A stretch of 64,000 nt of DNA, taken from positions 51,081,222 through 51,145,221 of the forward strand of contig CM065684.1 in assembly GCA_017654935.2 (NCBI GenBank), given 5' to 3'. A model generated the notes under the pieces. It saw only the letters and a list, made by a program, of their open reading frames with translations, was not told where the DNA came from and searched no databases. Below are positions 18,301 through 62,000 of this stretch, in pieces. The translations under genes and the position numbers were made by a program. Positions within the stretch are counted from its first letter, which is position 1. Each line of letters starts with the position of its first letter. Source of the DNA: Phymorhynchus buccinoides. Its lineage: Eukaryota > Mollusca > Gastropoda > Neogastropoda > Raphitomidae.

Positions 18301-19341
18301 AAAAGGGAGCCAACTCTCGTTTATGACAGCAGTAATGTGGGTCGGTAAGTGTTTACAAGACATGTACAGGCTTCAAACTTCAACTTTCTTTTGCGAGGTG
18401 TGAACCGCCTTATAAAAGAGGGCGCATTTTACTTTATTTTTTTGATTTTTCTTGAAAATTGCACTATTCGCTTTATACACAGCAGCGCCTAATTATTTGA
18501 AAATGACAGTATTAGCCTGTGAGGCCTACACACCTCATCAGCCAGCCTTAGCAGCATGCGGAGAAACCTGCCCAGGTGCATCTGTCTGGCTGAGAGCTCT
18601 CCTCGCCCCGAGTAGTCTGTTCTGTACAGGGCTGTGGCGCTGTCCACTATCAACAGAGCGTACCTGAATGAACACAACACAGGAAAAGGAATCATTATCT
18701 GTCTGGTTGAGAGCTCTCCTCGCCCCGAGTAGTCTGTTCTGTACAGGGCTGTGGCGCTGTCCACTATCAGCAGAGCGTACCTGGACACAACACAGGAAAA
18801 GAAATCATTATCTGTCTGGCTGAGAGCTCTCCTCGCCCCGAGTAGTCTGTTCTGTACAGGGCTGTGGCGCTGTCCACTATCAGCAGAGCGTACCTGGACA
18901 CAACACAGGAAAAGAAATCATTATCTGTCTGGCTGAGAGCTCTCCTCGCCCCGAGTAGTCTGTTCTGTACAGGGCTGTGGCGCTGTCCACTATCAGCAGA
19001 GCGTACCTGGATGAACACAACACAGGAAAAGGAATCATTATCTGTCTGGCTGAGAGCTCTCCTCGCCCCGAGTAGTCTGTTCTGTACAGGGCTGTGGCGC
19101 TGTCCACTATCAGCAGAGCGTACCTGGACACAACACAGGAAAAGAAACCATTAGAATTTAATGAGGAATCTTAGAGCCATTCAGTTTCATAGAAAGGCAA
19201 CAGCTAGCAAGGCCTCACCAACATTTTCATGTCGGAGTGTGGCTGCCCACGTGGCAGGCAGGGCTGCCTACCCTAAAATCAGACTTTCCTGAACATTACT
19301 TCTGAATTTCCTGGACACTAATTCCGGAGGCATCACACACA

Positions 19342-19374
<33 letters not shown>

Positions 19375-59000: not shown

Positions 59001-62000
59001 AAGCCCATTGGAGTAGGCCGAGTGTGCCGGTGGAATGGATGACACGAGCTCACAAAGCATGCATCCTGTGCGCCAATAGCAGTCTAAACGAAGACTTGGG
59101 GCGTGGGGCAGGATAAACATCCCCAATCAGAAGAAGAAGACAAACACATCGCCGTCGGCAATCTCAAGTTCGTCGTCATTTGGAATTGCATTGGATGTTG
59201 GTCCCGAATCTTCCGTTACTGCAGCCGTATCTTCACTGACGCTCTGTCAACAGTGAACAATGGTGTCGGTGGATAATCAACAGGCAAGACATGGCATTCA
59301 GTTGCCACGTATGCTTTCAGGCAATAGACTGGAATTTCTCCGCCCCTGACCTGTAACAGTCAGGGTTTATGCAGATGTTTCACACCAAAATTCAGAAACT
59401 TTCAAAGACTTTTTCAAAGACCCTTTATCCTATTTTCAAAGACCTCTCACGACATGCAATCTCAATAAAGTTTATAAACTGAAAACATTTTTTTTTAGTT
59501 TCTCACTTCAAAATCTTATGACGGTTTTTTTCTTTTACTTTTCACAACCTAAAAAGATTGGATTTTTTCATCAACTTCTTCAGCTCCTTCCTCTTCATTT
59601 CTGCATAGCTCCTAAGAGCGTTGGGCTCCTTGATGAGAGGAACTGAGGCCTTTTGTTCTGCCTCCAATGATTTCTTGTCTGCAGTCTTCAACTTCTCTTC
59701 TATTTGATGACGATTTCTTCGATCACGATCACTCAAGTTGCACCGGTGTAGCCAAAGGCTCTGAATACAGTGAAACCCGTTTAGTACGAATTCCAGGGGA
59801 GAGGGCCAATTTACTCGTTGTAAGCATTGCTCGTTCAAACCATTTTATCGATTTTGGCAACCCTGACGAACCTATCAATCGGTCCTCACATCTACTGTGA
59901 TGTGCGTGTTGGTAAAGTGTGAAAAAGAACACACTTACCCAACAAAGCATGGTTGTAAGCCCAGTATCCTGTATCCATAGGGTTTTTAATGCCGATTACA
60001 TACACTTTAAAACAGTTTATTAACACACGATAACATCAAAAACATAAAATCCACACACGCGCTTTAAGAGAAAGTTAAAATTTCCCAGAAGTCACAAGAT
60101 CAGTGCGCAAAGAGTGAGTCCAGTGTCGTCTGCTTGCGCTGCAGACACCCAAGTTGTTATATCGGCCAATCAGAATGCCGCTTACATATCGAGGGGTCAG
60201 TCAAGATGGCGATGCTGTTGTCAGTGTGTTCTCGTTCTAGCCAGGTAGTTGTGCAAGAAAGCTTGACTTTGGGATGGCGGTGTGGTTGTAAGTGCGTTCT
60301 CGTTCTAACCGCGTAGTTTTTGCATAAAAGCTTGACTTTGGGAGTCAATAAATTGTACGTTATATGCAAGTTGCTCGTTGTAGCGAGCTCGTTGTGTGCA
60401 GAATTATTTAACAAGGAAAAAGAAGGCTTGTGGTCGGGAATTTTGAAACCACTCGTTAAACACGGGCTCTCGTTTAAACCGTACTCGTACTAAATGGGTT
60501 TCCCTGTATAGCGAGGGGAAGCAACAGATTACTGTCGACAAATTGAGGATATCTGCTAGATGGAACTAGATCGTCGAACCTTGGATATCGGAAAATCAGC
60601 CAAATAAAATTGCTTCTTTATCAATTGTGGAAGCAAACATTTTTTTTTTTTACGCCGTCAATTTTTGTAGGCGTCAATGACTTTTTCACAAACCATTTCA
60701 CGATTTTCACAGACCAAAACCAATTTTCAAAGACCGTCAAAGACTTGAACATGGCACTCCATTTCTCAAAGACTTTCAAAGACCGTGCGAACCCTGGACA
60801 CACGCACGCACCTACATAAAATTGATGCTCTCTTGCGTGTCACTTAGAAGTTGTACATAGCCACTTCAGTATTTAACACATTATTGGACCATCATTTGCG
60901 CAGCATGATCCGTTCGCGGGCGTCACCTCCACCCACCTCCGCGCTATAAACAGTGAACATAGGTGTCAGTAAATAATCAACAGCAGGGCTCCCAATCGTC
61001 CCGCAAAACAAGGGGTCCCAGGGACTCCTTCACTTACAGCATAGAGGGTCCTAGAGGCGGGATAGAGGGTCCCAGTGGCATAGCGAATGCTAAAAATAAT
61101 TTTTCTAGTGCATCCCAGGAACCCCCTGCACATTGTTTTAGAGGGTCCTGTAGAATTTTAGTGCTTCATAGACCCCCAAATGGGGGTCCCTGGGAGCCCT
61201 GAACAGGCAGGCCAAACCATTCAGTGTCATGTATGTTTTGAGCTAATGGAAATATCTTCAGTATCTAACACACTGTTGGGCCATTATTTGCACAGCACGT
61301 TCCTTTCATTAGGTTTCACTCAACGCTTGGCACTGCCGCTTTGTCAGTCAACCAAGGTAACAGTGAATAAACAAAACAGTTCTTAGTAGCCATAAATTAA
61401 AGTAGTGAGTAAACAAAACAGTTCTTAGTAGCCATAAATTAAAGTAAATCAATACATTTCAATACTTGCCATCTATCACTGATTTAACGATCAGAAGAGC
61501 ATCTATAAGCTTCTGTTCACTCACCTTGCCTGTACTGGTTGGAGTACTTGTGGCGTACATACTGATCATGTCCACATCTTCATCTCCTATCCTGTGTGCA
61601 TAGCCATAGGATGTAAATGCATTACAACAATTACTGCAACAACCATAATAAACAAACAAACACCACAAAACAAGCACATCTATTTACTATCGCAAACACC
61701 ACAAAACAAACACATCTATTTACTATCGCAAACACCACAAAACAAACACATCGATTTACTATCGCAAACACCAAAAAAACAAACACATCTATTTACTATC
61801 GCAAACACCACAAAACAAGCACATCTATTTACTATCGCAAACACCACAAAACAAGCACATCTATTTACTATCGCAAACACCACAAAACAAGCACATCTAT
61901 TTACTATCGCAAACACCACAAAACAAGCACATCTATTTACTATCGCAAACACCAAAAAAACAAACACATCTATTTACTATCGCAAACACCACAAAACAAG

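Follow-up and report, generated by a model that had tools for sequence, protein, structure and literature searches.

Why do so many exons of RAD51 and POLA2 in the neogastropod snail Phymorhynchus buccinoides stand beside partial copies of their own ends? In the stretch of 64,000 nucleotides analysed here (contig CM065684.1, positions 51,081,222 to 51,145,221; hereafter, the window), 8 of the 15 local repeat families that lie inside the two genes cross a splice junction, at 7 of their 24 exons. These arrays are probably “mirages,” that is, tandem duplications straddling a single exon–intron junction, for which an origin by end joining appears likely and growth by unequal exchange probable, and which splicing is predicted to pass over. 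The sections below describe the repeats, their counterparts in other genes and in a second copy of the locus, the splice sites they carry, and the extent to which exon edges are over-represented among them.

Junction-spanning repeats in RAD51 and POLA2

Exon boundaries were set from protein similarity together with GT-AG sites in a genome assembly of 2.12 Gb (3962 contigs), giving the following two gene models.

33249..15269, minus strand: RAD51, nine coding exons, open frame of 338 aa
61591..40891, minus strand: POLA2, 15 exons in the window, introns GT-AG, joined without a stop; the N-terminal exons lie past the window end

The predicted RAD51 protein shares 97% identity with its Nucella lapillus counterpart, and the POLA2 protein is 76% identical to those of Nucella and Babylonia and 69% identical to that of Littorina; in Nucella and Pomacea, the RAD51 gene models are of ordinary size, 338–339 aa. 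RAD51 and POLA2 are apparently neighbours in Pomacea canaliculata as well (gene numbers 13751 and 13750).

Repeats were collected by a self-BLAST of the window at uniform sensitivity, with microsatellites masked and direct repeats up to 3 kb apart retained, and a family was termed junction-spanning when it reached at least 6 nt across a splice junction. This survey found 26 families, of which six dispersed families and two outside the two genes were dropped and three rows were merged with their neighbours, leaving the 15 inside RAD51 and POLA2; at the same threshold, no local direct repeats were found in 20 first-order Markov shuffles. The junction-spanning families, with exons of RAD51 and POLA2 designated R and P, respectively, and an element inserted in one of them are as follows.

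18580..19153, minus strand: RAD51 R7 acceptor-side array (exon 18534-18663), five units of ~113-117 bp
24217..25351, minus strand: RAD51 R4 acceptor-side decayed copies (exon 24201-24292), at ~24787-24891 and 25246-25351
24319..24724, minus strand: 406-bp TTAA-flanked element, separating the exon-attached R4 unit from the copy upstream
45234..45846, minus strand: POLA2 P12 donor-side array (exon 45813-45919), six units of 102 bp, with older decayed units to ~44751
46340..46382, minus strand: POLA2 P12 acceptor-side decayed copy, 43 bp, exon part only 7 nt
48777..51193, minus strand: POLA2 P8 acceptor-side array (exon 48718-48839), 82/87-bp units, 28 upstream copies
54296..54713, minus strand: POLA2 P5 acceptor-side array (exon 54205-54360), ~146-154 bp, two upstream copies
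55480..56012, minus strand: POLA2 P4 acceptor-side decayed copies (exon 55429-55517), 75-bp array upstream of the exon
58672..61307, minus strand: POLA2 P2 acceptor-side decayed copies (exon 58613-58728), reaching 2.6 kb upstream

All junction copies consist of contiguous intron and exon DNA, arranged as direct tandem repeats, with aligned units of 43 to ~150 bp and with 1 to 28 copies upstream or downstream per family. The unit at R7, for example, comprises 84 nt of exon and ~30 nt of intron, and its array presents four decoy acceptors. Four families (R7, P5, P8, and the P12 donor) have the tandem form of a minisatellite, and the other four (R4, P2, P4, and the P12 acceptor) are spaced and decayed; identity among units ranges from 97–99% at the P12 donor down to the decayed pieces at P2 and P4. 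By eye, the decayed P12 acceptor copy continues into a palindrome-like stretch (46300-46346). The upstream copy at R4 shows the unoccupied site of the TTAA-flanked element, indicating that the duplication predates the insertion. A second copy of this element lies beside P4 at 56034-56234 (84% identity over 218 bp to 24319-24724), and we take the element to be a piggyBac-like miniature inverted-repeat transposable element.

The seven cases named in the preliminary description of this DNA (RAD51 exons 4 and 7 and POLA2 exons 2, 4, 5, 8, and 12) are all present, and the phenomenon is larger than was claimed there. POLA2 exon 12, listed for its donor-side duplication, which is present, has an acceptor-side copy in addition, so that seven families lie at acceptors (R4, R7, P2, P4, P5, P8, and P12) and one at a donor (P12). 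The statement that the duplicated blocks span junctions holds for these eight families, the seven named and the P12 acceptor, but does not extend to local repeats in general, since seven of the 15 lie clear of every junction (25836-28432, 32320-32465, 42904-43272, 43580-44326, 46824-46921, 60205-60343, and 61656-63462).

Junction repeats in other genes of the genome

Searching for the chaperonin family PF00118 gave 54 matches, and the best 30 of the 54 were cut out with 1.5-kb flanks; after exclusion of the long single-exon matches L025 and L029 and the duplicate L032, and with the similar pair L034/L035 kept, 27 exons remained. At least one junction-spanning family was present at 13 of the 27, at 11 acceptors and 6 donors. 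Inspection of these junctions found a copy crossing the exon edge in all 17 rows (16 families), the less certain rows being L050, where the match may itself duplicate an adjacent exon, which makes its donor doubtful, and the acceptor of L037, where the edge was left unplaced by the script. One block, in L050, covers a whole exon.

Genes of DNA replication and repair provided further cases. A RAD51-paralog gene on contig C9, presumably XRCC3-like, has a donor-side array of 14 units of 73 bp, with GTAAGG after the copies inspected. An MCM gene on C22 has a donor-side array in which one exon end is repeated eight times downstream, between stretches of a pentanucleotide repeat, and on C29 the MCM match table shows three related places where exons are flanked on either side by partial copies. 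This table, which detects only longer coding pieces, covers ~26 distinct exons, with partial copies at three, and contains one extra match on C16 as well; the DMC1-like gene yielded no clear junction-repeat case. The many cases across the genome, with units ranging from near-identical to decayed, bear out the earlier proposal that the process has recurred at different times. The preference for acceptors noted earlier is pronounced in the window (7 to 1) but weaker in the chaperonin exons (11 to 6), and a firm acceptor bias was rejected on the pooled count of 20 to 10 (P 0.10), which includes the MCM cases known only from the table.

Decoy splice sites

Many of the copies retain the AG or GT signal, and, when scored with a matrix derived from the 23 acceptors and 22 donors present in the window, the scorable decoys mostly score close to the true site. 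The exception in signal retention is P8: 19 of its 28 upstream copies have GG instead of AG, and 13 of the 28 carry a change in another AG, 15 nt further along. The GG copies may reflect either the chance spread of one variant or the silencing of decoys; selection for silencing was considered and set aside as only a hint, the changed AGs being two of ~5 common variable sites and the other AGs being intact.

Of 24 decoys examined (18 acceptors with AG and six donors), 22 would truncate or shift the protein, and the exon-attached site is therefore expected to be the one in use. The open frame is kept by the remaining two, at 18780 in R7 (+117 nt, 39 aa) and at 48995 in P8 (+156 nt, 52 aa). These two, together with the many decoys whose fit to the local matrix is close to that of the true site, could be taken to mean that the arrays are kept for a function, with alternative acceptors or donors lengthening the protein or tuning splicing. 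Such a function is very unlikely in view of the 22 damaging decoys, the decay of the old copies at P2, P4, and R4, and the usual length of the Nucella and Pomacea RAD51 models. The intact frames of RAD51 and POLA2 in the snail are, for their part, no more than compatible with undisturbed splicing.

A second copy of the locus

The contig that contains the window also has a second set of RAD51 and the 3′ portion of POLA2, ~60 kb away (C5:51025222-51065221), with an identity of ~93–98% over most blocks and 80–85% around P7–P8; no match to P1–P6 was found in this copy within the 60 kb read. This second copy may be an uncollapsed haplotype or a recent duplication (paralog). Five junction families, R4, R7, P8, the P12 donor, and the P12 acceptor, are common to both copies, and unit numbers differ between the second copy and the window (two vs five at R7, five vs six at the P12 donor, three vs one at P14); likewise, a 62-bp array in a RAD51 intron occupies ~0.6 kb in the second copy vs 2.6 kb in the window. 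The difference at P14 concerns a whole array.

41606..41683, minus strand: POLA2 P14 acceptor (exon 41502-41628), a single unit in the window; an additional junction-spanning array of three 77-bp units in the second copy only

This difference is either a gain in the second copy or a contraction in the window.

The presence of a possibly uncollapsed haplotype on the same contig raises the question of whether the arrays are assembly artefacts, produced by repeats or haplotypes wrongly joined. This is extremely improbable: the units differ from one another, an inserted element separates the units at R4, the five shared families have different unit numbers in the two copies, and arrays of like anatomy occur on several contigs.

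Representation of exon edges among local repeats

The preliminary description held that exon boundaries are sampled more often than would be expected of ordinary intronic minisatellites, and the outcome depends on what is counted. Because the growth of an array multiplies intron copies and never creates a new junction, each family was also counted once. In such founder counts, in which one unit per family is placed at random, 8 of 15 window families span a junction vs 0.98 expected (P 9e-7), or vs 1.16 expected when the collapsed units are shifted circularly (P 5e-5), and 16 of 62 chaperonin families do so vs 2.93 expected (P 1.4e-8). Among the young, high-identity arrays of the window, four of seven span a junction vs 0.5 expected (P 7e-4). 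The claim is thus upheld for founders but fails by position: the comparison with random intron positions that had been proposed as a check, when run on the window, shows no junction excess (P 0.96), although this positional test treats every amplified copy as a founder.

Several points weigh against the interpretation of the arrays proposed here. By position, repeats cover 8 of the 45 junctions in the window vs a mean of 12.4 after circular exon shifts, and in the chaperonin sample 17 of 54 junctions (31%) are covered vs 26% of flank positions, a small difference. When the founders in the window are confined to 300 or 150 bp around exons, the excess falls to P 6e-4 and P 0.01, and with an additional two-fold detection advantage to P 0.02 and 0.15, respectively; in the chaperonins, a four-fold advantage weakens the excess to P 0.03. 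The lack of families inside chaperonin exons (0 vs 1.9 expected), though in line with the interpretation, has little power, the C22 MCM array, with ~7 nt common to exon and repeat, looks like slippage, and the steps of repair, exchange, and splicing set out below are ones that we infer from sequence.

These counts bear most directly on the possibility that ordinary intronic minisatellites hit junctions by chance and that the exon-attached unit, held constant by selection, simply stays recognisable for longer. The absence of an excess in the positional test agrees with this, as do the share of intron positions near these exons that lie in local repeats (~26–27%; 27% in the window) and the lack of any distance gradient from the exon among the 40 of 46 non-junction chaperonin families that were testable, the other six having been skipped mostly because they overlapped the exon. 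However, decay at half speed would give a detection advantage of about two-fold, at which the chaperonin founder excess still stands at P 6e-5, and even a three-fold advantage leaves P 0.003; the excess among young window arrays likewise argues against chance alone, which we regard as a possible but doubtful explanation. The longer visibility of exon-attached units may account for part of the founder excess, and a genuine hot spot could account for the remainder. A general pull of arrays toward exons, considered since three of the seven non-junction window arrays lie within 65 bp of an exon, was rejected in the absence of a gradient in the 40 chaperonin families.

Possible origin of the arrays

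The origin and persistence of the junction repeats as mirages can be pictured in five steps. First, a staggered break near an exon edge may have been filled in and joined, duplicating ~50–150 bp with little shared sequence. In mouse and human cells, according to the available part of the source (PMC8355091), fill-in by Pol alpha-primase produces small tandem duplications where breaks carry 3′ overhangs. The three joints that are cleanly readable, those of R7, the P12 donor, and P14, share at most one base (at P14, by eye, one T in common with the flanks), and the breakpoints lie at positions inside exon and intron. Founding driven by microhomology was rejected on these joints, which also lend no support to the earlier suggestion that the splice-junction sequence acts as a seed; the MCM case does share ~7 nt.

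Second, as the geometry suggests, a duplication across one junction would survive, because a complete junction always remains on the complete exon, whereas a duplication internal to the exon would alter the protein. Tolerance of duplications that leave one working site, which the preliminary description had offered as an alternative, would fit the cases seen. Third, the spliceosome is predicted to use the exon-attached copy, because it would pair acceptor and donor across the short exon. Fourth, the now-intronic arrays would grow, shrink, and homogenise, as the unit differences between the two locus copies suggest. Finally, elements insert and copies decay, as is seen in the window.

The over-representation of exon edges and the transposon-like elements adjoining R4 and P4 could also point to copying of the edges that is linked to splicing or templated by RNA, or to capture by transposons. 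This is very unlikely, since the copies run unbroken from intron into exon DNA and are repeated head to tail, and the R4 element arrived only after the duplication. A bolder form of the mirage interpretation can be put forward only tentatively, and we doubt it in its full extent: exon edges would be duplication hot spots in the snail lineage, with banks of decoys at a third to a half of conserved exons, introns growing largely from exon ends, a spliceosome unusually strict in cross-exon pairing, and a habit that evolved separately in lancelets.

Other features of the window

The 62-bp array in the RAD51 intron (25836-28432) comprises 42 copies with CATCTCAG directly followed by GTA on the gene strand, so that an acceptor-like and a donor-like site stand back to back, an arrangement that we assume to be like a recursive-splicing point. 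Two other arrays are purely intronic, one of 15 units of 49 bp (43580-44326) ending 23 bp from exon P13 and one of 50 units of 36 bp (61656-63462) ending 65 bp from exon P1. A RAD51 intron also contains transposase-like open frames that match the hAT dimerisation domain (19894-22012, minus strand), and long open frames occupy the left window end (76-3140), including one of 366 aa without a Pfam match at 0.001. No Rfam family reached its gathering score in the window.

Comparison with known systems

This kind of array has already been described, in lancelets; the phylum is new, and the density was not found reported. Mirages are therefore not peculiar to lancelets. Literature searches, with limited reach into subscription journals, found no such arrays in molluscs; a paper on Conus gene structure describes, in its available part, simple repeats in introns (PMC3862624). 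If the density seen here is genome-wide, it amounts to a natural mass experiment on splice-site choice, in which near-identical sites stand beside the true ones and truncation is the usual penalty. Two copies of one locus are available here that differ by a whole array (P14). The arrays also offer a concrete route for the growth of introns and the supply of new splice sites, and they are a warning for gene predictors, as partial exon copies commonly adjoin exons in this snail genome.

The closest parallel is provided by the amphioxus mirages of Adh3, troponin C, the globins BflGb6 and BflGb9, and PGBD5, which, in the available parts of the reports, are minisatellite-like tandem duplications across an exon–intron boundary, on either side, as in the snail (PMC3087553, PMC3902484). 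The likeness extends to unit size (150–160 bp in the globins and 10–72 bp in Adh3) and to the retention of AG or GT in many copies (PMC3087553, PMC3902484). Unit number varies between haplotypes in amphioxus (PMC3087553, PMC3902484) and, in the snail, between two locus copies that may be haplotypes or paralogs. Normal splicing beside the arrays (PMC3087553, PMC3902484) and somatic instability at Adh3 are reported for amphioxus. Unlike these, the snail arrays belong to another phylum, the molluscs, and affect many exons of several genes (7 of 24 and 13 of 27).

Tandem units that contain splice sites are known elsewhere too. The minisatellite of the interferon-induced gene IFI6 (6-16) consists of very short tandem units, each with a splice donor, and gives rise to alternative splicing. 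A donor in each tandem unit is likewise found at P12 and in the XRCC3-like gene, but the snail units are 70–160 bp long, rather than very short, and any use of their decoys would be hypothetical. The internal tandem repeats of human segmental duplications, as far as the available text describes them (PMC2812944), also place minisatellite units at exon boundaries, as in the snail, but they change exons or make new introns, whereas in the snail the modelled exons of RAD51 and POLA2 have normal lengths. Finally, in the model of intron gain by tandem duplication of AGGT-containing sequence (the Rogers model; Zhuo et al., 2007; Gao and Lynch, 2009; cited in the available part of PMC3087553), the duplication itself supplies the splice sites, as it does in the snail. 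No new intron inside a formerly continuous exon was found in RAD51 or POLA2, where the copies lie next to the exons, within introns, and the joined exons read through as open frames; unlike the duplications of that model, those of the snail lengthen introns that already exist.

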